A DNA stretch of 64,000 nucleotides from Lepidurus packardi (lineage: Eukaryota > Arthropoda > Branchiopoda > Notostraca > Triopsidae), in contig JAKZAN010000001.1 of the NCBI GenBank assembly GCA_023053545.1, positions 10,064,565-10,128,564 of the forward strand, read 5' to 3'. Below the pieces are notes generated by a model that worked only from the letters and a program-made list of their open reading frames with translations, was not told the DNA's origin and made no database searches. Each line of letters begins with the position of its first letter. The stretch's first letter is position 1. A program made the position numbers and the translations under genes. Shown here piece after piece: positions 2,732 through 64,000 of the stretch.

Positions 2732-3139
2732 TACTTTCTTTTGTCCTTTATGCTGCATGACACAACACAACTTACCCATTGTCGAATGTCACCATCTTTG
2801 TGCATTGAGGGTCGCCATGTCTTGGTTCGATGGTCAATCATGATATTGATAAGTGCACTGTAGACTTAATGGAACTTAACCAAAATGAAGTTACCTATGT
2901 TAAATCTATGAGAAGCCATAGTTGTTTTACATGAACGATATCTAATTAAAGTAAAAGGAAGCAGGTATAGCATTGCTAATCCTACTGTATACACACCTTT
3001 GCGTAAGACTCGCTTCTATGTCTCTGCGTAACTTGAGGCCGGTAAAAGTTAAAACGGTCTGGACCCAAAGATGGCGATGTTCGACTCTAAAACATGGTGG
3101 CATTAAGGTTCGCATCCAACCTTTATTTTTTTTTCTCAA

Positions 3140-5634
3140 GATGTTCTCCCGACAGATGAACTGCAAATACAACAAGAAGTAGAAGTTAGCAATTCGTCAA
3201 GTCAAAATAACAAGAAAACAAAAGGTTCCAGTTTTAGGATTATTTGCTACTTGTGTAAAGAAAGCTTAACTAGTTACGTTACACTAGTTAGGCATATAAA
3301 GGATACACATGATCAAATTGAATGTCAAATTAAGTCAGAAGCCTTTCCTGACATACAAAGCTTCTATCAATGGAAAGAGCATACGGAACTTGAAGACAAC
3401 ACGTCTTGGGTCACCCGAAGGGGGGAAAGACAATGCAAGGATCGTACTGTCATCAGTTACGTATGCAACAGGTCCTACGTTTATAAGAATAAAAGCGAAG
3501 GTCATCGTGCCATTAAGCAGCAAAAATCGCTCCGTACAGGGGTAAGTTGCACCTCCTTTGTGCAAGTTAATCTAAACACAAAGACAGGCAAAGTCGCCAT
3601 TGATTACTGCCGATTCCACATTCCTCATGATAGGCTCCCTGGCCGAAATAGGATTCAGGTGTCTGTGAAAGCGAAGATGGGGAAAATGATTTACCTTCAA
3701 ATGCCTACCCATGTCATAGTGGAACAATTGGCAGGGGATATTGACCAGGAAAATATAAACATCAACAAGCTTGTAACACCCAAAGATGTACGTAATTTAG
3801 CGCAAAAATTCCCGAAAGCACTAAGAAAACATCAATATGATCACGTTAGTGTTACTCCTTGGGTAGAAGAAATGGCAAAAGCAGATTATAACCCTGTTTT
3901 CCTCTACAAGGGTCAGGGCACTCAAGACAACGATTCGGGTCTTGAAGAGAAAAATTTCGTTCCAGTCTCAAGCGGAGGCTTTAAATCTATATAAGGATGA
4001 CTGTGTTTTGATAGAGAGTACCTATCGAATTAATTAATATGCTTTTGTCTTAACTACCTTAATGGTGTTAGACAAGTCCCGAATGGGATACCCAGTGGCT
4101 TTTTTAGTGAGCGACCGGGAACACGAGGTAGTTATTAAATACTTCTTCAGTAAACTGAAAGAGAGAACAGGAGAATTAAAGCCGAAGCAATTCATGAGCG
4201 ATATGGCGGACCAGTACTGGAACGCCTGGGGAAAGGTATTCGATACCAGCAAAACACAAAGACCTATCTGCATTGGCATTGGCAGTACTGGAACGCCTGG
4301 GGAAAGGTATTCGATACCAGCAAAACACAAAGACCTATCTGCATTGGCACGTCCTCCGAGCCTGGAAAAAAAACCTAACCAAGCTCCAGGCACAAGTTAC
4401 GAGTGAAATTTCTGACCACATCTTTTCTTCCCTGCAGCGTTTAATATGCGTTAGGGATGAAATAGATTTTCGAAGGACTTACACCCAATTTTTAACTTAT
4501 ATTGAGGAGAACCATTGGTCCTTCTTCACATACTTTTACGATGAATACAACAAGCGTATATCTACATTTGCTGGATATAATTACAAAGATATGTATGTGC
4601 GAACAAACATGGTCTTAGAAACGTACCATCGCCATCTAAAACACGAGATCATGGCGGGTGTATTTAACCGTAGAATCGACTCACTAGTCGAGCACTTGAA
4701 AGATGTTTCAACTCGTAGAATGCATAAACAGGTAGTGCTCTACAATAGAGGCTACTATAGTTATAGTCTCAAACAAATTCATATTAGGCATTATAGATCG
4801 AAAAAGATACCTGATGAGCACGTGACGATTTTGGATGCGAAAACTTGGCGCGTGCAATCGCAGTCAAATCCTGGTATCTCTCACTTAGTAATTAGACATT
4901 ACGACGGACTATGCACCCAACCTGATTGTTTTAATCGATGTGGCCTGTGCGGAGCATGTCGACATACATTCTCCTGTGACTGTAAAGACTTCTACTTTTT
5001 AAAGTTTGTCTGCAAACATATTCACAGAGTTATCCCACCGCTAACGAACGATCAGAGACACTCTCATGTCGACGCCGTTGCTATCGAAGAAGACGGCGTG
5101 CATATGGCAGATAAGTTATTGCCTGCAAAATTAGAAGATAATACCTTGTTAGCGAAAAAGTTGCTGGACACTTGTAATGAAATTATCCATAATATAATAA
5201 TTAAACAAACTAATTACACAAGGGAACAATTTGTTCACATGATTAGCACGGCTGTATCCTTCAAAATTTTAACTGAACAGGAACCAGCCAAAAATGTACA
5301 AGAAATATTTGAAGATAAAATTTCTGCAAGTAAAAATGCCGTGACAAAACCTCAGAGTAGGGATTTTTTTGCTACTCGCAAAGAAACACGGAAACGAAGC
5401 AAAACAGCAAAAATTGATGACCAGATACTGGACGACATAACACCCGCATTTTGTGCCACGTGCTTTAAGCAAAATGCTCCGAGTGATCCAGAGAATTGTC
5501 AATGGATCGCATGCAATGAATGCAACAGCTGGTTCCACGAAGAGTGTGTGCCAGGTTTAATTAGAGCGGGTCTCAACGCAGAGGACCTGAAATCAATTGT
5601 TTTCAATTGCATCTCCTGTGCTTTGTCCTGTTAA
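3140..5634 (+). pseudogene. MULE (Mutator-like) transposase with C2H2, SWIM and PHD fingers, dead
   Basis: Domain order is: a C2H2 finger (CYLC...HIKDTH, about 3245-3310); a FAR1/FLYWCH-like DNA-binding region; the MULE core (LTTLMVLDKSRMGYPVAF, then YLHWHVLRAWKKN); a SWIM finger (CDC...CKHIH, about 4975-5025); and a C-terminal PHD finger (CATC, CNEC, WFHEEC, CISC; 5453-5625). Animal Phantom-type MULEs have this general layout. The gene is broken. There is a frame change near 3975 and a TAA at 4035-4037 where CAA is expected. A 71-bp tandem duplication at about 4211-4352 shifts the frame. The residue at the expected first catalytic Asp is Glu (LIESTY). The long open frame from 4273 covers the second half of the core onward. 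Confidence 0.85.
4211..4352 (+). repeat. 71-bp tandem duplication inside the MULE gene
   Basis: The segment beginning CAGTACTGGAACGCCTGG recurs exactly 71 bp downstream (4212 and 4283). Since 71 is not a multiple of three, this alone breaks the reading frame. It is present identically in the other arm at 9034-9175. Confidence 0.92.
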
Positions 5635-7751: not shown

Positions 7752-10246
7752 TTAACAGGACAAAGCACAGGAGATGCAATTGAAAACAATTGATTTCAGG
7801 TCCTCTGCGTTGAGACCCGCTCTAATTAAACCTGGCACACACTCTTCGTGGAACCAGCTGTTGCATTCATTGCATGCGATCCATTGACAATTCTCTGGAT
7901 CACTCGGAGCATTTTGCTTAAAGCACGTGGCACAAAATGCGGGTGTTATGTCGTCCAGTATCTGGTCATCAATTTTTGCTGTTTTGCTTCGTTTCCGTGT
8001 TTCTTTGCGAGTAGCAAAAAAATCCCTACTCTGAGGTTTTGTCACGGCATTTTTACTTGCAGAAATTTTATCTTCAAATATTTCTTGTACATTTTTGGCT
8101 GGTTCCTGTTCAGTTAAAATTTTGAAGGATACAGCCGTGCTAATCATGTGAACAAATTGTTCCCTTGTGTAATTAGTTTGTTTAATTATTATATTATGGA
8201 TAATTTCATTACAAGTGTCCAGCAACTTTTTCGCTAACAAGGTATTATCTTCTAATTTTGCAGGCAATAACTTATCTGCCATATGCACGCCGTCTTCTTC
8301 GATAGCAACGGCGTCGACATGAGAGTGTCTCTGATCGTTCGTTAGCGGTGGGATAACTCTGTGAATATGTTTGCAGACAAACTTTAAAAAGTAGAAGTCT
8401 TTACAGTCACAGGAGAATGTATGTCGACATGCTCCGCACAGGCCACATCGATTAAAACAATCAGGTTGGGTGCATAGTCCGTCGTAATGTCTAATTACTA
8501 AGTGAGAGATACCAGGATTTGACTGCGATTGCACGCGCCAAGTTTTCGCATCCAAAATCGTCACGTGCTCATCAGGTATCTTTTTCGATCTATAATGCCT
8601 AATATGAATTTGTTTGAGACTATAACTATAGTAGCCTCTATTGTAGAGCACTACCTGTTTATGCATTCTACGAGTTGAAACATCTTTCAAGTGCTCGACT
8701 AGTGAGTCGATTCTACGGTTAAATACACCCGCCATGATCTCGTGTTTTAGATGGCGATGGTACGTTTCTAAGACCATGTTTGTTCGCACATACATATCTT
8801 TGTAATTATATCCAGCAAATGTAGATATACGCTTGTTGTATTCATCGTAAAAGTATGTGAAGAAGGACCAATGGTTCTCCTCAATATAAGTTAAAAATTG
8901 GGTGTAAGTCCTTCGAAAATCTATTTCATCCCTAACGCATATTAAACGCTGCAGGGAAGAAAAGATGTGGTCAGAAATTTCACTCGTAACTTGTGCCTGG
9001 AGCTTGGTTAGGTTTTTTTTCCAGGCTCGGAGGACGTGCCAATGCAGATAGGTCTTTGTGTTTTGCTGGTATCGAATACCTTTCCCCAGGCGTTCCAGTA
9101 CTGCCAATGCCAATGCAGATAGGTCTTTGTGTTTTGCTGGTATCGAATACCTTTCCCCAGGCGTTCCAGTACTGGTCCGCCATATCGCTCATGAATTGCT
9201 TCGGCTTTAATTCTCCTGTTCTCTCTTTCAGTTTACTGAAGAAGTATTTAATAACTACCTCGTGTTCCCGGTCGCTCACTAAAAAAGCCACTGGGTATCC
9301 CATTCGGGACTTGTCTAACACCATTAAGGTAGTTAAGACAAAAGCATATTAATTAATTCGATAGGTACTCTCTATCAAAACACAGTCATCCTTATATAGA
9401 TTTAAAGCCTCCGCTTGAGACTGGAACGAAATTTTTCTCTTCAAGACCCGAATCGTTGTCTTGAGTGCCCTGACCCTTGTAGAGGAAAACAGGGTTATAA
9501 TCTGCTTTTGCCATTTCTTCTACCCAAGGAGTAACACTAACGTGATCATATTGATGTTTTCTTAGTGCTTTCGGGAATTTTTGCGCTAAATTACGTACAT
9601 CTTTGGGTGTTACAAGCTTGTTGATGTTTATATTTTCCTGGTCAATATCCCCTGCCAATTGTTCCACTATGACATGGGTAGGCATTTGAAGGTAAATCAT
9701 TTTCCCCATCTTCGCTTTCACAGACACCTGAATCCTATTTCGGCCAGGGAGCCTATCATGAGGAATGTGGAATCGGCAGTAATCAATGGCGACTTTGCCT
9801 GTCTTTGTGTTTAGATTAACTTGCACAAAGGAGGTGCAACTTACCCCTGTACGGAGCGATTTTTGCTGCTTAATGGCACGATGACCTTCGCTTTTATTCT
9901 TATAAACGTAGGACCTGTTGCATACGTAACTGATGACAGTACGATCCTTGCATTGTCTTTCCCCCCTTCGGGTGACCCAAGACGTGTTGTCTTCAAGTTC
10001 CGTATGCTCTTTCCATTGATAGAAGCTTTGTATGTCAGGAAAGGCTTCTGACTTAATTTGACATTCAATTTGATCATGTGTATCCTTTATATGCCTAACT
10101 AGTGTAACGTAACTAGTTAAGCTTTCTTTACACAAGTAGCAAATAATCCTAAAACTGGAACCTTTTGTTTTCTTGTTATTTTGACTTGACGAATTGCTAA
10201 CTTCTACTTCTTGTTGTATTTGCAGTTCATCTGTCGGGAGAACATC
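7752..10246 (-). pseudogene. MULE transposase, mirror copy, dead
   Basis: This is the exact mirror of the gene at 3140-5634, with the same C2H2, MULE core, SWIM and PHD regions and the same lesions: frame change, premature TAA and 71-bp duplication. Shared lesions show that an already dead copy was duplicated, rather than two independent insertions. Confidence 0.85.
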
Positions 10247-10654
10247 TTGAGAAAAAAAAATAAAGGTTGGATGCGAACCTTAATGCCACCATGTTTTAGA
10301 GTCGAACATCGCCATCTTTGGGTCCAGACCGTTTTAACTTTTACCGGCCTCAAGTTACGCAGAGACATAGAAGCGAGTCTTACGCAAAGGTGTGTATACA
10401 GTAGGATTAGCAATGCTATACCTGCTTCCTTTTACTTTAATTAGATATCGTTCATGTAAAACAACTATGGCTTCTCATAGATTTAACATAGGTAACTTCA
10501 TTTTGGTTAAGTTCCATTAAGTCTACAGTGCACTTATCAATATCATGATTGACCATCGAACCAAGACATGGCGACCCTCAATGCACAAAGATGGTGACAT
10601 TCGACAATGGGTAAGTTGTGTTGTGTCATGCAGCATAAAGGACAAAAGAAAGTA

Positions 10655-23316: not shown

Positions 23317-23644
23317 TTATCCTACAGTGGCTGGTGTCCTGCCTTCCCACAGCCAGAGGTGTGCGTTAAAGTCCTCTGTGATGATGTAGTTGCTGTCGTA
23401 GTGTTTGACTTTCTCCTGTATCTCTTTCAAAAGTGCAGCTGTGGATTCCGTATGACGGCGGTAATGGCTATTATAAAGGTGGACAGGATGTTGAGGACAT
23501 TCAGTCTGAGGACCAAGAATAGGCTAGATATATGCAAAATGGTGTAAGGACTGTTGGGGTTCCGCAAAACAATGATTCCTTTGCGACTGTGCCACTGTAG
23601 CATTCGCGATGTTCAGGTCAAGACTGGCTGCATTCAAGAACATG
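23317..23644 (-). pseudogene. Non-LTR (R1-like) endonuclease remnant, part 1
   Basis: The minus strand reads ALLKEIQEKVKHYDSNYIIT then EDFNAHLW. This is the GDFNAH-type motif of the apurinic endonuclease domain of non-LTR retrotransposons, with Gly replaced by Glu. Frames are broken. A hAT element at 23653 interrupts it. Its upstream part (LQANRRNKNAVATYM) lies on the far side at 28686-28760. Confidence 0.65.
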
Positions 23645-24185
23645 GCTGCATGCAGGCCCGTACCCAGGGGGGGGGGGTTCGGGGGGTTTAACCCCCCCCC
23701 CCCCCCCCCCGAAATGTTTCCGCAAATGAAAAATATACGTTTCTCTAGCATATGGTACTTGAGAAGTTTATTTCGAATGGAGCTTTGGTTTTGTTTGACT
23801 GTTTTGAAGCTCGAACAACGCGATAACTTTTCTCCTTTTTCGTATCCCCCTTTGCCCTTTCCTTACCGGAAAGCTGTGCAAAGGAAGGCGAGCTGGAGAA
23901 ACCTTCATATGTTCTTTTTGCGTTGCGTTCCTTCGGTCCTTCGCTGTTTCTCCCCCACAAGTAACATTTTTCTAACTTTTTCTTTCCCCCGTGTTATCCC
24001 CTTCCTGTCTTGCAGAAAGGAGTGGAAAGGAAAACACGGGAGTTTTTAAACGTGGTCGAAGTCAAGCTAGCTCAGTTTCATATCTGAGACTTCCCAGACA
24101 ACAAGCTTAGCGTGTTAGGTCGTATTCGCTAGTTTCTCGATTCGTTACCTCAGTTTAGGTCTGTGATCATTTCACAGGTTGAGTT

Positions 24186-24761
24186 ATGAAGCGCAAAGTA
24201 GACATCAAATCTTACTTCCTACCTAAGGCAGTAAAGGTGGAAAATTCTGTAACACCTGGACCTGGGTGTTCAACTACTCGAGAGGACTTGGCAGCTACCC
24301 AGCAAGAGGCCACAGGCGATTCCAATGGATCGCAACCAGGTACTTCTCTGCTGCCCGCAGAGAATAATATTAGTGTTTCACCTATTTCTTTCGTGTCCAT
24401 AGAGACTTTGCTAGCAAATACTTCTGAAGAAGTAAAAAAGCAGGATTGCACGTCAGGTAGCTCGTCCACTTCTCGGGTTTCCGCTTTTCCAAACGACATA
24501 GGAAAATTTGTTAGCATGTCCTCTGAGCTAGACTCCACTATGAAACTTAACTTACTTAAATCTCCATGGGTACCTGATTTTTCTTACCGTTTCCCCGTTA
24601 CGGGACCAAGAAACCTAAAATTTCAAATTGCCTGGCTTAGCCGTTTCTCGTGGCTTTCCTATTCTCCGTCTGAAGACGGAGCAAGCGGAGATTCTAATAA
24701 CCGAAAATCGGAAATGTGTACATGTGTACAGTACATGTGCGTAGGTTGTTTTATGATGTAA
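24186..24761 (+). pseudogene. Truncated hAT transposase, N-terminal TTF-type finger region
   Basis: A 191-residue frame opens MKRKVDIKSYFLPK, then a Ser/Thr-rich linker, then LKSPWVPDFSYRFPVTG and RFSWLSYSPSEDGA. This is the start of the TTF-type zinc finger of ZMYM/DUF4371-class hAT transposases. After EDGA the family similarity stops where CxxC residues should follow, so the DNA-binding finger is incomplete and the DDE core is missing. The start is the first ATG of the frame. The same protein is encoded at 26572-27147. Confidence 0.82.
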
Positions 24762-25735: not shown

Positions 25736-28121
25736 CAGCCAGAGGTGTGCGTTAAAGTCCTCTGTGATGATGTAGTTGCTGTCGTAGTGTTTGACTTTCT
25801 CCTGTATCTCTTTCAAAAGTGCAGCTGTGGATTCCGTATGACGGCGGTAATGGCTATTATAAAGGTGGACAGGATGTTGAGGACATTCAGTCTGAGGACC
25901 AAGAATAGGCTAGATATATGCAAAATGGTGTAAGGACTGTTGGGGTTCCGCAAAACAATGATTCCTTTGCGACTGTGCCACTGTAGCATTCGCGATGTTC
26001 AGGTCAAGACTGGCTGCATTCAAGAACATGGCTGCATGCAGGCCCGTACCCAGGGGGGGGGGGGGGTTCGGGGGGTTTAACCCCCCCCCCCCCCCCGAAA
26101 TGTTTCCGCAAATGAAAAATATACGTTTCTCTAGCATATGGTACTTGAGAAGTTTATTTCGAATGGAGCTTTGGTTTTGTTTGACTGTTTTGAAGCTCGA
26201 ACAACGCGATAACTTTTCTCCTTTTTCGTATCCCCCTTTGCCCTTTCCTTACCGGAAAGCTGTGCAAAGGAAGGCGAGCTGGAGAAACCTTCATATGTTC
26301 TTTTTGCGTTGCGTTCCTTCGGTCCTTCGCTGTTTCTCCCCCACAAGTAACATTTTTCTAACTTTTTCTTTCCCCCGTGTTATCCCCTTCCTGTCTTGCA
26401 GAAAGGAGTGGAAAGGAAAACACGGGAGTTTTTAAACGTGGTCGAAGTCAAGCTAGCTCAGTTTCATATCTGAGACTTCCCAGACAACAAGCTTAGCGTG
26501 TTAGGTCGTATTCGCTAGTTTCTCGATTCGTTACCTCAGTTTAGGTCTGTGATCATTTCACAGGTTGAGTTATGAAGCGCAAAGTAGACATCAAATCTTA
26601 CTTCCTACCTAAGGCAGTAAAGGTGGAAAATTCTGTAACACCTGGACCTGGGTGTTCAACTACTCGAGAGGACTTGGCAGCTACCCAGCAAGAGGCCACA
26701 GGCGATTCCAATGGATCGCAACCAGGTACTTCTCTGCTGCCCGCAGAGAATAATATTAGTGTTTCACCTATTTCTTTCGTGTCCATAGAGACTTTGCTAG
26801 CAAATACTTCTGAAGAAGTAAAAAAGCAGGATTGCACGTCAGGTAGCTCGTCCACTTCTCGGGTTTCCGCTTTTCCAAACGACATAGGAAAATTTGTTAG
26901 CATGTCCTCTGAGCTAGACTCCACTATGAAACTTAACTTACTTAAATCTCCATGGGTACCTGATTTTTCTTACCGTTTCCCCGTTACGGGACCAAGAAAC
27001 CTAAAATTTCAAATTGCCTGGCTTAGCCGTTTCTCGTGGCTTTCCTATTCTCCGTCTGAAGACGGAGCAAGCGGAGATTCTAATAACCGAAAATCGGAAA
27101 TGTGTACATGTGTACAGTACATGTGCGTAGGTTGTTTTATGATGTAAATAAGAAAAATAAAAATAATGATATTAAGAACGAAATTACATTTTCTTGTCTA
27201 TACCAAATGACCATATTCTTTATTTTGCAACGATTTTTCAACAATTTTGATAGAGATGATTGAGGAATTCTTAAATTAACAGCCGCTTTCCTTTGTTGCA
27301 AATCTTTTAAATTCAACCTGTCGTTTCAATGCGAGCCATACCTGCTCTGTTACATTTCTATCAACGCTTATTTTCTTGTTCTTTTTCTGTTATTTCCGCA
27401 ATTTTTATATAACCACGCGTCTAAAGCACAACCAACACTGCTGAAGCCTACTCCCACGCTTAGGGAGGGTTCTCAACACGGTTTGAATCAGTCCTTTAAA
27501 ACTTAATTCCATAAACCCGCTGATTCCAACAACCAGGGATCGCAATAAGTGGCATCTACTACGGGACCTTGACTATAGTATTGAATATTTTTTAAGAGTC
27601 GCAATATTTTTGGTTCTCTTGCAGTTGATTGGGAGCTTTGAACTGTAGCTTCTCCTTTCCTTTCACTTTCCTTTTTTATTTTCTCCGTGTTTTCTCGTCA
27701 TTGGATTGTGTAAACTTCCACGCCGGGTTTTTTACAGGTAGGAAACTTTCTATGTTCGCTTCATTAACAGAACTCGTCAGCTATTCTGCGCGAGCTGACC
27801 GTAGTTGTGGGGTGGGGGAAGGGGAAGCCAGCTCTAAACGGCGTCAGTTCAATGCACAGGTTTCGAGTCGGGTAGAGTTTTTAAATGGCCCACTATTACG
27901 GTGAGGCCGGGCAACGTCGGGTGGCACTCATGCAGGCAGCGTACGAGACAGGGATGACTCCCCGACGGGTGCTGTCTTCTTCTTAAAAGATGGCTGGAGT
28001 CGCGCGGCGGCTAATTCGTATGGCCGCGACATATTTCTTTATTTGTTTGCATAGCCTTCCCCCTCTTCCCCCTTTTTTCCTTCTCTTACCCCCGGTGACC
28101 GCGAACATCATGCCCCAGCTT
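25736..28121 (+). repeat. 2386-bp tandem duplication, second copy
   Basis: Second unit. It includes a duplicated piece of the interrupted non-LTR endonuclease, the hAT left end (26039) with its target site (26031-26038), and the truncated transposase frame. Confidence 0.97.
26572..27147 (+). pseudogene. Truncated hAT transposase, second copy
   Basis: Identical in translation to 24186-24761. It belongs to the original-length element, 26039-28685. Confidence 0.82.
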
Positions 28122-38703: not shown

Positions 38704-41103
<2,400 letters not shown>

Positions 41104-57390: not shown

Positions 57391-57937
57391 TGTCTTTTAA
57401 AAAATCCTTTTTTCTTCTTAAAAGTAACGGAGAGCTATTGTTACACAGCCAACTAAATGTAACAATAATTTAGATATTTAAGAAGCTATACCACACGTTA
57501 TATGTATAAAACCACAAACACGTTAAGCTAGCATGACCCTTTCTAGAAGCAGCAAGCCTCATAAAAGCGGTTTCAGCCATGTTGTAGGAGGTGTCTTAAA
57601 AGTAGCAAAACGCATAAACCAGCGGCGGTGCACGTGATCAGTTTTTTCTCCTCGGGCTTAACTTTGCTTACACCCTAGGGTGCTTAGAACCAAAAGAATA
57701 TCTAAATATTCTGTGTTCAGAAGTTGACATTGATTTTTGACAACCGGCTTAGCAATAAAACGGAAAAGACATAAATATAGCTAAAGAAAACTTGCAGTGC
57801 AAATGAATGTTATTTTAACAGCTCCTTCCTTTGTTGTTTAGTAACAATTTTTTATGGCATTCGGTAAGCCCCAAAACTATTTGATATACAACAGAAAACG
57901 GACTTGACTGATAGCCTAAAAGACGACCCGTAAAAAT

Positions 57938-58110
57938 CTATCAAACGCTATCAAGTTGTATCAAACCTTCTTTCAAACGCTATCAAGTTGTATCAAAACT
58001 TCTATCAACTGCTATCAACTTGTATCAAAACTTCTATCAACTGCTATCAACTTGTATCAAACTCCACCTAGTGTATCAACTTCGAACAAGTTGTATCAAA
58101 CTTTCTCTTC
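57938..58110 (+). repeat. Minisatellite of CTATCAACTTGTATCAAA units
   Basis: Units of roughly 30-37 bp built from CTATCAA and TTGTATCAAA recur at least five times with variation. Confidence 0.85.
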
Positions 58111-58159
58111 TGTGTTTTCAAGTGCTATCAACTCACCGATTTTGTACAAGTTTGTCTCG

Positions 58160-58175
58160 CCTGGCCCGGGCCAGG
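58160..58175. repeat. Perfect 16-bp GC palindrome
   Basis: CCTGGCCCGGGCCAGG, self-complementary, in an otherwise AT-rich stretch about 360 bp upstream of the integrase start codon. Confidence 0.9.
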
Positions 58176-58536
58176 CTCGCTTCAAGGGACGGCCATTTTG
58201 TTGTTAGCTGTGACAACAGCTTATATCGTCCAGACTTTAGCCTTGTTTTTGAATGACGATTGTTTTTCGTATTCTTAATAAGACTAATAGTGTCCTGTTT
58301 CTTAATAAGACTAGTAGTAATAGTTACCTGTCCAATAATAGTGAAGACAAAGAAGATTTTTACTAAGTCTTATAGTGAAAAAAAAACAACACTTCTAAGA
58401 AAGTGTTGTTTAAATTAATTGGTAAGTTTTTAGAAGAGGACAGTTTGATATTACTATTATTTTTATAATACTCTTTCCGGTTTGGGATCCCGCGCTTTTT
58501 CAATACTTTTAACTTCATTTGAAGAAAACGATTAAC

Positions 58537-60266
58537 ATGGACGAATTCACGGATTTTTTCGAAAGTTTGCGAACTAAGATACCTTACTGGCGTGAATCCT
58601 ACCCAACGGATGATGCTACGTTGGTTGAGCGCACTGTTTCTGATATCGAGTCTTATTATCGCGCAATTAGTGGGTTACTACTGCGAAAGGTTAGTGCGTT
58701 TATGATTTAAACAAATTAATCTATTTTCTGGCGACTGCCATTCAGGAAGCATTTACTCCTCCTGTCGTTGCGACACTTGAAAGTTTACTTGATGGTGTTA
58801 GTGCCGCACTGGAAATCTGGAAGTCGTTACCAGTAGCCACCAGCTCGTGTTGCGCTTTGTATTTTGCTCCGAATAAGCAACGTACACTTCACGATGGCGG
58901 TAATGGGAGACCCAGGTACTTGATTTTACAAGAACAAGTTCAAGAACTCTGCTCTTTCGGTAAGCTAGGATATTTAAAAGTAAATGCAATAGCCCCGTCA
59001 TTTCGATATAGGTTTTAACTGTAAACAGATTGCGGGGATGCTAGGAGTCTCGCGTAATACTATGTCTCGTCGCTTTGCCGAATGGGGGTTACAAAGGAAA
59101 TTTAGGTAATTGTGTTGTTTTAAATGACTTGCTCGTTTTTGTACTTTTAGTACGTCCATTACCTAGGTTTTCGAATGTTTCCGACGCTGAATTGATCAAC
59201 GTAATTCGAGAAATTCATCTTGACCATCGACATTTAGGATGTACCGTGCTTTATGGGCTTCTACGTGCAAGAGGTTTGCACATACAACGAGACAGAGTCC
59301 ATTCAGCCCTTCGCCAATGTGATCCGCTTAATGTAACGTTTCTAACTTCTTTTTTATTCGTGTTAGTTGTATTTTATTGCCTCTCAGGTTCGAAGGAGAT
59401 GGGGTGCGCTGGTGACCCGAAAAAAATATTCGGTGAAGGGTGCCAATTCTCTCTGGCATATAGATGGCCATCATTCTTTGATTCGCTGGGGCATCGTAAT
59501 CCATGGTGGCATAGATGGCTTTTCTCGGCTCGTTGTGTTCCTTTCTGCGAGCGGAAACAACCGTGCCGCTACTGTGTTGAAGCGTTTTGAAGAAGCTGCC
59601 GAGAGCTACGGTTATCCTTCACGAGTGAGAAGTGACAAAGGGCTAGAAAATGTCTTAGTTTGTCGACGAATGGTCGAAGTACGCGGTGTTGGTCGGCGAA
59701 GTTTTATTACGGGACGCAGCGTTCACAATCAGAGGATTGAACGTCTTTGGCGCGATGTGTACCGTTGCTTCGTTATCACGTACTATTCCCTATTTTACCA
59801 TTTCGAACATTCGCAGATACTCGACCCATCGAACCCGTATCACATTTTTGCTCTACGCTACGTCTTCTTGCCAAGAATTAACGCGGGACTTAAAAGATTT
59901 CGACAAGGATGGAACTTCCATAAACTTCGCACGGAACGTAATTGGAGCCCTAATATGATATGGGTAAATAACATGATTAGCCTTGCCGAAGAGCCTGACG
60001 AGGTTGACGACAGTTATGGAGTCGATGATGACGGTCCAGCTGACCCAGAATTGGACAATTACAATGAAGCCTCCGAGGATGAAGCAATTAACGAAACTGC
60101 GGATTACCCGTGTCCCATGAGTGGCGAGAATTACCGTCTACTTTGCGAACATATTAATCCTCTGAAAATCTCTACAAATCATGCGCAAGATGTTTTCGAG
60201 GAAGTTTTGAATTATTTGGAAACCTTGCGTGAGAATAACGATTTCGTCATGTTGCCGCGAGTGTAA
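58537..60266 (+). CDS. Integrase-type DDE transposase-like protein, 501 aa
   Basis: Five exons join in frame: 58537-58689, 58746-58959, 59012-59105, 59167-59332 and 59388-60266. Residues 1-120 form an N-terminal helical region of unknown type. Residues about 124-150 form a helix-turn-helix (NCKQIAGMLGVSRNTMSRRF). An IS3-like second helical domain follows (REIHLDHRHLGCTVLYGLL). The catalytic core has D235 in LWHIDGHH, D292 in RVRSDKGLEN and E327 in HNQRIERLWRD, a D-34-E spacing typical of retroviral-type integrases and IS3-like transposases. An acidic tail follows. Related integrase genes occur in many copies in animal genomes. There is no frameshift or stop. The HECT gene follows 82 bp downstream. 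It could be a live transposase or a domesticated one. Confidence 0.9.
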
Positions 60267-60348
60267 GTTTCCCCGCAACTGTTAGCTTCTTGGCGCTGGA
60301 CGGGTAAACACGTTTTTGCTCCAAGTTTTAATACCAAAATATCTCGTG

Positions 60349-63300
60349 ATGGATTCGTCATCGAAGGTTTTAAAACAAGTATTGTGGGATTTGGGAAAGG
60401 AACATTTATTGGAAACCTTTAAATTAAATATGGTAATTACATTTTCAATGACTTTGTGGACACCACATGTTATTGACAATCAACCGCATGCTATATTGTT
60501 TATATATTTTTAACAGATGCATATAGTAATAACTTTCTGATGCATAGACGAAGGCGTGTCAAAATAATCTGTTCTCTTGTCTTTTTGGACAGATAACCGA
60601 CGAAAACGCCAAATTCATTAGCGAGGCTCAACTAAACGCTCTTGGTTTGACAGAGATTGGTTTGCAGCTTAACTTTAAGTCTTTCTTCCGGAAACATGAA
60701 GAAGGTACCTATGGCTTACCTGGACAAAGCCAGTGTACCAACGCTGTTTCGCAGTATAATTCTCCTTCCATAGGTTTGTTATTTTCAACTTAATTTGTTT
60801 TATACATACCACTATCGTCTTTTAGTATAGGACAGTCTCATGAAAATGCGTTCCGGCGATTATCGCAAGCTGAATGTGCCACAAATAATTTGTCTCAAGT
60901 CGAGAAGGAGTGTCGTGATGCATTCAAACCATACAGCAAGCCTACAAATTTCAAAAACAAACGTCACAAAATTGATGAATCTTATTTTGACTCACCATCA
61001 TCGGTAGCTAAGCTAGAGTCAAGCCGTGGTAAACGGAGCATGCCGCGTCATTTGGAAGATGACCGTATTGTTGGGTTTTTGAAATGGAATTCGCAAACAA
61101 CAGCGGCCAGAAACGTCATTGTTGAAACGTCCATGCAACTGGGTGCCCACGATTCAGCAACCGTAGTGATGGAACGTATAATTTCCTTCTTGAGCCGTCG
61201 GCCAAAGGTTTATAAATATATGTATGTATATTGTATATTTATTTATTCTTTTTCCCCTAGTTTGCCTTCGTGTCACATCATGATATCCAACTAGTCCGTG
61301 TAAAAGGGCGAGAGGTTCACGAGGTAGATGTCGAAAAGATAGATGGGGCAACTATTTGTAGGTTTTATCCAAAAGAAAAGTCTGCCGTTTATTTTCGAGC
61401 TCGGGTAACCCGTTTCATAACAACAATAAAAATCGTAAACCTACTATCGTTTTACAGGAATGGGAATTGGTTAAAGGAGAGAATCCAAAGCGAGCTCCCC
61501 AATCAGATTCCGACTCCGATTTTGAAATTACTGCCAGACCCTTGACGGTACACAGTCCTCGCTTCTTCAAACCTTTTACTTAATTCTGCCTTTTTTCATA
61601 CCAAAACTTACCAGAAAAAGACAGTTGATCTTTCTTCTTCGGACACGGATTCCAATGCACGTACCCAGGATGTACCCCAGTATTCTGCGCTTTCTCCAAG
61701 TAAACCATCAGTCAAAGAGTCCGAAATCGCTGATGATGGTAAAAAAAGTGAAACCCTCCCCGATTTTGTTAATTTTATGGACTCCATTGGCGGGTACTGC
61801 ACTAATATTTTTTCTAAACAAAAATACTTACACAGTTACAAGTAGGATTGTTTCAAACGGAACTGGGTCGCGTGAGCTTAACCTTCCCGTCTTTGTCCCT
61901 GTAATGGATACAACGTCCGTTGGCGACAAGTACGTGAAGTATTTCCCACCTTCTTTAAGAGGCAACTAATTTTGTTCTTTCCAGAGCTAGTAATCGGTCC
62001 CTCATAATAGATGTGTTAAATACGCTCAAGTCAAGTATGCTGCCTGGCGTTGTCCAAATTTATTCAACAAGAAGCAATGCGTTTTCGAAGTTCTGCGAAA
62101 AGTCACAATTAGATAGCAAATTGGTGATGAAACACCTCAGCGTGACCCTGGCAGGGGAATCTGGAATTGACGCTGGAGCGTTGACTAGGGAGTTCTGTCG
62201 TCTTGCGCTTATTCAAGCTTTCCAGGAGCTGTGTGAGCCCGCCCCGTTTGGATATATTTTTTCATCCAGTGCACTGGCATTGGAAGAGGAGAAGTTCGTT
62301 CATTTTGCCAAACTTATCGTTGTCGCACTTTTGAATGGCCATCCAGGTCCCAAAAGCTTCGCTCCGGCAGTCGCTAATTGGCTTTTGCAATGCCGTAAAG
62401 CTGACGCAGAACCGTCCATTTGCGATATTCCCGGAGAAGAACTGAGAAGCACTTTGACGAATGTAATAATAAAAAAACATGTTGCGGTTATAAAATCAAT
62501 ATTTGCAGGTACGTGACGCTGGCTCGAAAGAGGAATTTTTAGCATTGCTTTCCCACACTGATTTGCTATCAAAACTTGGCTGCAGACGTTTGCCATCGTT
62601 TAACGAAAAGGATTCCTTTATTAAAGCGGCTTGCAAATTCTTTGTTATTCACAGCGTGAAAGCGCCGATGGACCAGTTTTTACAAGGTAAGCTGTTAATT
62701 ACAGTGCTAAGTAAAGTGGACCAATAAACGATCCGTAACTTTTCATAGGTTTGGGAGAATTAAATTTCTTGGATTCGGCCAGACAATTGCCAGATCATTT
62801 CTGGCCGTTATTTGTTGCTAAATCAGTTGACGATATAGTTGCCAAGGAACTAGTAGAATTGTTCCAAATTGAGTTTGCGGATATCGGTAATACGAAACGC
62901 CCAAAAGAAGAGGCTGTTATAGAACACCTTTTTAACACGTGGCAAGAGATTGAAGGTGAATATAGAGCTATAGTTACACTTTTATAAAAAATTTTGACCT
63001 ATTAATGTTTTCCGACTTTAGAGTGTCCGCTTCAATGTCAGATCTATTTGCCCGGCTTGACCGCTGCCGAAGATACCCAAACAAGTGAAACAGTAGCCTT
63101 AAGTCTGGGTTGCTTTCTCACATTTGCAACTGGTTCACAAGGGTTAAGCGCTGTGGGGTATGGGAGTTTTACCCCTACCATCCAATTTTACCACCCCGCG
63201 CCTGAAGAGGACAATGCTAAGTTTTATATCACTGCCCATGTATGTGCAAATACCGTCATCATTCCTGTTACCAAAAACTATCAGAGTTATGATGAATTTA

Positions 63301-63353
63301 AAACAATGTTCATCACTTCAATAGCGTCCTCACCAGAATTTGGCAGGATTTAA
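60349..63353 (+). CDS. HECT-domain E3 ubiquitin ligase with SAM-like N-terminus, 777 aa
   Basis: Eleven exons join in frame: 60349-60432, 60593-60773, 60831-61207, 61261-61404, 61458-61547, 61615-61793, 61846-61929, 61985-62462, 62509-62686, 62749-62955 and 63022-63353. Residues about 5-60 look like a SAM domain (LLETFKLNMITDENAKF, LNALGLTEIGLQLNFKSFF). The middle is polar and acidic. The HECT fold runs from about residue 395 (LSVTLAGESGIDAGALTREF; APFGYIFSSS; LTFATGSQGLSA) with the likely catalytic Cys742 in AHVCANTVIIP and a C-terminus of FKTMFITSI...FGRI. HECT ligases pass ubiquitin through that Cys to a substrate. It resembles the multi-copy G2E3-like genes of animals but lacks their PHD/RING fingers. 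Tight same-strand linkage to the integrase suggests one genetic unit. Confidence 0.88.
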
Positions 63354-64000
63354 GAATATTCAATTTGATCATGCTATAGGCTATGCTATAGGTTAAGTTA
63401 TTAAATTAACCTAACCCAACTTTAACCCATCCAGGTAAAAAAATAGCACACCGGTGTTTGCTGATTTCAATCTGAAGAGCAGCAGATAATAGTATTATTC
63501 AAGTGCCTTAAATTGTTTTTATACCAAATTGGTCCATTATGATTATTGTTATCTGATTAGCATTTACTGTACTCAAGTGCCATTTATTCCAAATTGATGC
63601 GTTTTTATCGTTATCAGCAGTCCATTTGTGATCTCGTCTGTTTTGTGGCGACCCTCGTCTGATTTGAATATTACTGCATACTCAAGTGCCTTCAATAATT
63701 ATACCAAATTAATTACAATTTTTTAATCGTTGCTGGCTTATTACTACCGCGCTCTCATAAGTGCCTTCAATAATTATACTAAATTTGATCCTTCTATGCT
63801 GTTTGACTTCAATCTGTTATGATGGTGTCTGATTTCAATCTGAAGAGCAGATAATAGTATTATTCAAGTGCCTTAAATTGCTGTTATACCAAATTGATAA
63901 ATTGGACGGTATTTGGTCCATTTTATGGTCCTTGATTATTAAGAAAAGAAACGGACGCATCTAACTTATCGATCGATCTTTAATTTATGTTTTATGTTTC
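63354..64000. repeat. Tandem/interspersed repeats downstream of the HECT gene
   Basis: The phrase CAAGTGCCTT followed by an A/T-rich block and TATACCAAATT recurs about five times at roughly 100-bp spacing from 63499 to 63890. TGATTTCAATCTGAAGAG occurs at 63462 and 63831. No gene seen. The array runs to, or almost to, the window edge. Confidence 0.8.

Follow-up and report, generated by a model that had tools for sequence, protein, structure and literature searches.

DNA transposons of the IS3EU/GingerRoot superfamily are characterized by a DDE transposase, TA..TA ends and target site duplications that are usually 6 bp long (PMC10045372). In rust fungi, IS3EU elements also host TET/JBP dioxygenase and alpha-kinase genes, and the TET/JBP enzymes are thought to aid escape from silencing (PMC12730594). 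Enzymes of the ubiquitin system are found aboard transposons too: a further study reports Helitrons with VTD or OTU deubiquitinase domains (PMC9741609).

Here we analyse a stretch of 64,000 nucleotides from the branchiopod Lepidurus packardi (contig JAKZAN010000001.1, positions 10,064,565 to 10,128,564), which we call the window. It hosts a transposon in which a DDE transposase gene is followed by a predicted HECT ubiquitin-ligase gene. The element resembles IS3EU/GingerRoot elements in its 6-bp duplications, its TA..TA termini, the lack of an HHCC zinc finger and a first catalytic D that lies 100 to 300 residues into the transposase. It differs in its second gene, as neither HECT nor ubiquitin occurs in the main text of the superfamily description. 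The rust-fungus elements are similar in superfamily name, in their TAYGG..CCRTA ends, in their 6-bp duplications and in carrying extra enzyme genes by the transposase. However, these encode TET/JBP and alpha-kinase proteins in fungal hosts, and that text names neither HECT nor ubiquitin (PMC12730594). The Helitrons likewise bring a ubiquitin-system enzyme aboard a transposon, yet theirs removes ubiquitin, the domain sits inside the ORF of a rolling-circle element, and HECT is absent from the text of that study (PMC9741609).

No paper describing IS3EU and HECT together was found in the literature covered, which excludes Repbase, most subscription papers and the GingerRoot description. Among the broader literature matches listed, no title or abstract start describes a HECT-bearing transposon. 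A HECT accessory gene aboard an IS3EU/GingerRoot element is a new variety as far as this literature goes, which does not show that it is absent from print beyond it.

Borders, ends and copies of the element

The transposon is 8,010 bp long and lies on the plus strand at 57853-65862, so that 57853-64000 is inside the window and the final 1,862 bp are beyond its end. These borders were drawn from eight copies. The left target site duplication, ATTTTT, occupies 57847-57852 and its right copy 65863-65868, beyond the window end. The left terminal inverted repeat (57853-58108, plus strand) contains 256 bp that are identical to the right end, followed by a further 100 bp or so of gapped similarity, and has 32-bp tandem units inside. 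The element starts with TATGGCATTCGG and ends with CCGAATGCCATA, giving termini of the form TATGG..CCATA. Downstream of the two genes an AT-rich 3′ region begins (63354-64000 within the window), with a GC content of 0.30 and short direct repeats at 63461-63903. Stop-to-stop frames in the 3′ region that do not reach into the right inverted repeat are at most 85 aa long.

The gene pair, 4,817 bases in all, occurs eight times in the 108.6-Mb genome at an identity that rounds to 100%, with one base changed in one copy. When the flanks are read outwards, the right border is common to 8/8 copies and the left border to 7/8; the copy at C3:5136004 has lost its first 7 bp and has no matching target duplication. 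The remaining seven copies are each flanked by a perfect 6-bp duplication, and all seven are different (GTCCAT, TGGAAC, GTGAAG, GTCCCT, ATTTTT, TTGCAG and CCCCTC). The flanks also differ among the eight copies, which are spread over six contigs (C1, C2, C3, C5, C16 and C46). The seven other copies are 99.75-100% identical to the one in the window, and three of them match it across the entire shared length; summed over all seven, they depart from it by two substitutions and four length changes, of which three are of 1 bp and one is of 20 bp.

We searched for the empty counterparts of two insertions. The flank of the C46 copy was found again on contig C8 at 100% identity, where the site is empty and holds a single CCCCTC, and the flank of the C16 copy gave diverged matches only (66-87%) and no empty partner. 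C8 may represent the other haplotype or a duplicate. The near-identical copies, the duplications and the empty site show that these are recent insertions rather than an old neighbourhood: the element has moved very recently. The near identity of the copies, together with the empty counterpart of one insertion elsewhere in the assembly, suggests that it may still be active.

The preliminary description had proposed that the pair would be a chance neighbourhood if the two genes had independent borders. Both genes are inside the shared borders, so the pair is not a chance one.

The transposase gene

Hand splicing at consensus GT..AG sites, on which the predicted exon borders of both genes are based, gives an open transposase of 501 aa from five plus-strand exons at 58537-60266. 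Exons 1 and 2 (58537-58689 and 58746-58959) are followed by exon 3 (59012-59105), with the helix-turn-helix-like region, and by exon 4 (59167-59332). Exon 5 (59388-60266) encodes the integrase core, as identified by Pfam (PF24764, E 5.7e-81) and by alignment. The catalytic triad proposed in the preliminary description, D235, D292 and E327, falls in this core and does not vary across 12 aligned sequences, namely the window protein and 11 of 120 listed relatives. For the helix-turn-helix proposed there, Pfam gives helix-turn-helix-like matches at residues 121-146, all of them below their cut-offs. No zinc-finger (HHCC) family is among the nine Pfam matches of the transposase with E up to 1.

A homolog search returned 2,704 relatives of the transposase with E up to 0.001, with corals, bivalves and fish among the sources named; the pairing with HECT may be confined to this genome. 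A scan of the viral contig collection found no relative. The genome contig collection gave just three contigs of 3.4-4.2 kb with one, which belong to a Cycloclasticus MAG from a Poecilosclerida sponge, and inspection by eye of these short contigs revealed no HECT-like frame. As a side observation, this places a eukaryotic-type transposase on three contigs of a public MAG of a sponge symbiont; the three contigs are probably sponge host DNA.

The HECT gene

The second gene begins 82 bp after the first, also on the plus strand, and runs from 60349 to 63353. Its 11 predicted exons (60349-60432, 60593-60773, 60831-61207, 61261-61404, 61458-61547, 61615-61793, 61843-61929, 61985-62462, 62509-62686, 62749-62955 and 63022-63353) are all open and encode a predicted protein of 778 aa. 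The claim of two multi-exon open genes, 82 bp apart on one strand, is therefore confirmed by the splicing.

The product is a predicted HECT-type ubiquitin ligase. Pfam assigns it to PF00632 with 30.3 bits against a cut-off of 23.9 (E 4.4e-7), and the expected catalytic cysteine is Cys743, in the motif AHVCAN near the C-terminus, which is encoded by the last exon (63022-63353) together with the C-lobe. The domain has diverged from the HECT profile. Of a bilobal domain that is about 350 residues long in full, the best match to Pfam falls in the C-lobe and covers profile positions 233-304 only, and exon 8 searched alone against Pfam gave no HECT match. Solved structures yielded six weak matches (E 0.15-0.89), of which four are HECT ligases, and a structure model of the C-lobe made from one sequence was too poor for use (pLDDT 39). 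A SAM-like N-terminus, another feature of the preliminary description, was not borne out; Pfam has no match there, and all that was found is one STE11 chain, a SAM domain, at E 0.84 in the solved-structure search.

In searches that reach only relatives with exact words in common, residues 380-778 of the protein had no homolog with E up to 0.001 (7,995 candidates scored) and the whole protein had none with E up to 0.1 (7,994 candidates scored). An NCBIfam search gave no match. The G2E3-like type named in the preliminary description is a tentative assignment.

Older derivatives and selection on HECT

The genome also hosts older and shorter relatives of the element. One of these is a deletion derivative at C1:6832338, where the start of the transposase gene is fused to the last 0.8 kb of the HECT gene, the two parts being 79 and 82% identical to the window element. 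Its left end, upstream of the fusion, matches at 25/25 bases. The derivative is dead, because it carries frame-shifting gaps. In its HECT part 214 codons were compared with the window element, after codons touching gaps had been left out.

Over these 214 codons a simple count gives a dN/dS of about 0.19 for the HECT part, and the differences at codon positions 1, 2 and 3 are 26, 16 and 58 (chi-square p 4e-8). Non-coding positions of the same pair are 78% identical (103 of 132). Neutral decay of the dead copy raises the ratio; therefore, the 3′ coding part of HECT was under purifying selection in the active lineage to which the window element belongs.

Twenty further short loci, taken from a larger set, all share the exon-1 region (20/20), and pieces of the inverted ends match in 10/20. 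Both ends are present in only 1 of 22 short relatives, which is 1,080 bp long and has the target duplication CTGCAA.

The transposase-HECT pair in a second lineage

The transposase search revealed four further loci with matches to the core. A genome-wide Pfam search for PF24764 gave 13 matches at 12 loci, namely the eight copies and C6:5752195, C16:1858677, C1:2654247 (in two pieces) and C2:2634682.

The C6 locus lies in a separate element (C6:5750287-5760452). The inverted ends of this element are identical over 483 bp, its termini are TATGG..CCATA and its target duplication is GGGGTC. Its transposase (PF24764, E 1.2e-53) is 39% identical to that of the window over 166 residues. A HECT C-lobe (E 1e-10) with the cysteine present follows on that strand some 6 kb further downstream, so the order of transposase then HECT is the same in both elements. 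The DNA of the C6 HECT gene occurs once only in the genome. No significant BLASTP similarity was found between the HECT ends of the window and C6 elements, and therefore the HECT genes of the two lineages may have a common origin or may have been captured separately. The C2 locus is a relict in which a piece of transposase is followed about 90 bp on, on the same strand, by a piece that shares 63% identity with the HECT end of the C6 element.

In total, HECT sequence accompanies the transposase at 10 of the 12 PF24764 loci. The two remaining loci, C1:2654247 and C16:1858677, were read for about 7.5 and 7.7 kb downstream, and nothing there resembles the HECT gene of either lineage. These relicts are 98% identical to each other over 2.9 kb, beyond which both run into other transposons. 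Approximately 660 bp downstream of their transposase is a different frame with the stretch HEADIFGKL, which has no Pfam match above cut-off.

A genome-wide Pfam search for HECT gave 62 matches, many of which are pieces of one gene. It matched C6 and missed C2 and the eight window-type copies, the latter because their single exons are under its threshold.

With 6-bp duplications at 7/8 copies and in the C6 element, TATGG..CCATA termini in both lineages, and a transposase that combines PF24764 and the D235, D292 and E327 triad with no HHCC zinc finger, the element fits the IS3EU/GingerRoot superfamily.

Other features of the window and the assembly

A repeat with the frame VMKRKVDIKSYF... is found at 23576-24761 and 25962-27147 of the window. 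By eye it was also seen in the C6 element (L047:3990-5401), between the transposase and HECT. Frames of 295 and 478 aa occur twice with the same translation and in opposite orientation, at 3107-5634 (plus strand) and 7752-10279 (minus strand), and form a large inverted duplication, probably of transposon origin; the 478-aa frame has a weak PHD-like match that is below cut-off. At 39178-40707 (minus strand) a complete frame of 509 aa with CENP-B_N, HTH_Tnp_Tc5 and DDE_1 domains looks like a pogo/Tc5-type transposase that is seemingly intact, a possible exception to the view of the preliminary description that nearly all other transposons in the window are dead. Four contig ends were also read. 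C3 ends in (TTAGG)n, a telomere repeat of the arthropod type. A different tandem repeat, about 20 bp long, stands at the start of C2 and at the end of C1; at the start of C1 no repeat was obvious.

Discussion

In our judgement this locus is very probably a recent IS3EU/GingerRoot transposon with a DDE transposase and a HECT accessory gene, perhaps for a ligase directed at the host. The preliminary description regarded the two genes as parts of one mobile unit, and the common outer borders, the 6-bp duplications, the empty site and the return of the pairing in a divergent element all uphold this. The selection on the 3′ coding part of HECT and the recurrence of the pairing in a distant lineage of the same genome show that the predicted ligase belongs to the transposon as an accessory gene and is not a neighbour.

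How might such an element work? The transposase would act on the long inverted ends and would insert the element with a 6-bp stagger. The ligase could tag host silencing, chromatin or repair proteins, letting the element be expressed or letting breaks be resolved its way. That the tagged protein is a host factor hindering transposition is a tentative reading, to which we would lean without much confidence; it is made by analogy with the proposals for transposon-borne TET enzymes and deubiquitinases. A narrower version, for which we have slightly less confidence again, is that HECT may be a counter-defence factor whose ubiquitylation of a silencing or DNA-repair protein of the host enables a burst, an E3 strategy like that of some viruses that would have arisen inside a superfamily of DNA transposons.

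The target may instead be the element's own transposase. If HECT ubiquitylated it, copy number would be kept low and the host would survive. The small number of full-length copies and the presence of both genes in one order and on one strand in both lineages are compatible with such self-limitation. That said, the burst is recent, the copies are nearly identical and a low number may be a sign of a young invasion, so we regard self-limitation as unlikely, though it deserves consideration.

Far less probable is that HECT is a host gene that was captured passively and is useless to the element. Capture of host sequences by DNA transposons is common, and the element has some 2 kb on its 3′ side that seem to be non-coding. 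However, every one of the 11 predicted exons is open, the dN/dS of the compared part is low and the pairing is found again in the divergent element and in a relict. Two further readings have next to no probability. HECT sequence is plentiful across the genome, as the 62 matches show, so a host HECT gene could in principle adjoin an unrelated transposase by chance, but eight copies of the whole unit with shared borders, duplications and an empty site led us to reject this. We also rejected an assembly artefact or contamination, which the near-perfect identity of the copies might suggest, in view of the distinct flanks on six contigs, the different duplication at each of seven sites, the empty site and the older, shorter relatives on large contigs, such as that of 1,080 bp.

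As the element is possibly active, the role of the ligase is directly testable. A predicted ligase gene beside a transposase gene suggests that protein tagging serves a DNA parasite in managing either the host or its own activity. A HECT gene that is kept in two divergent lineages, and is selected where this is measurable, would extend the tools of a DNA transposon to active protein tagging.
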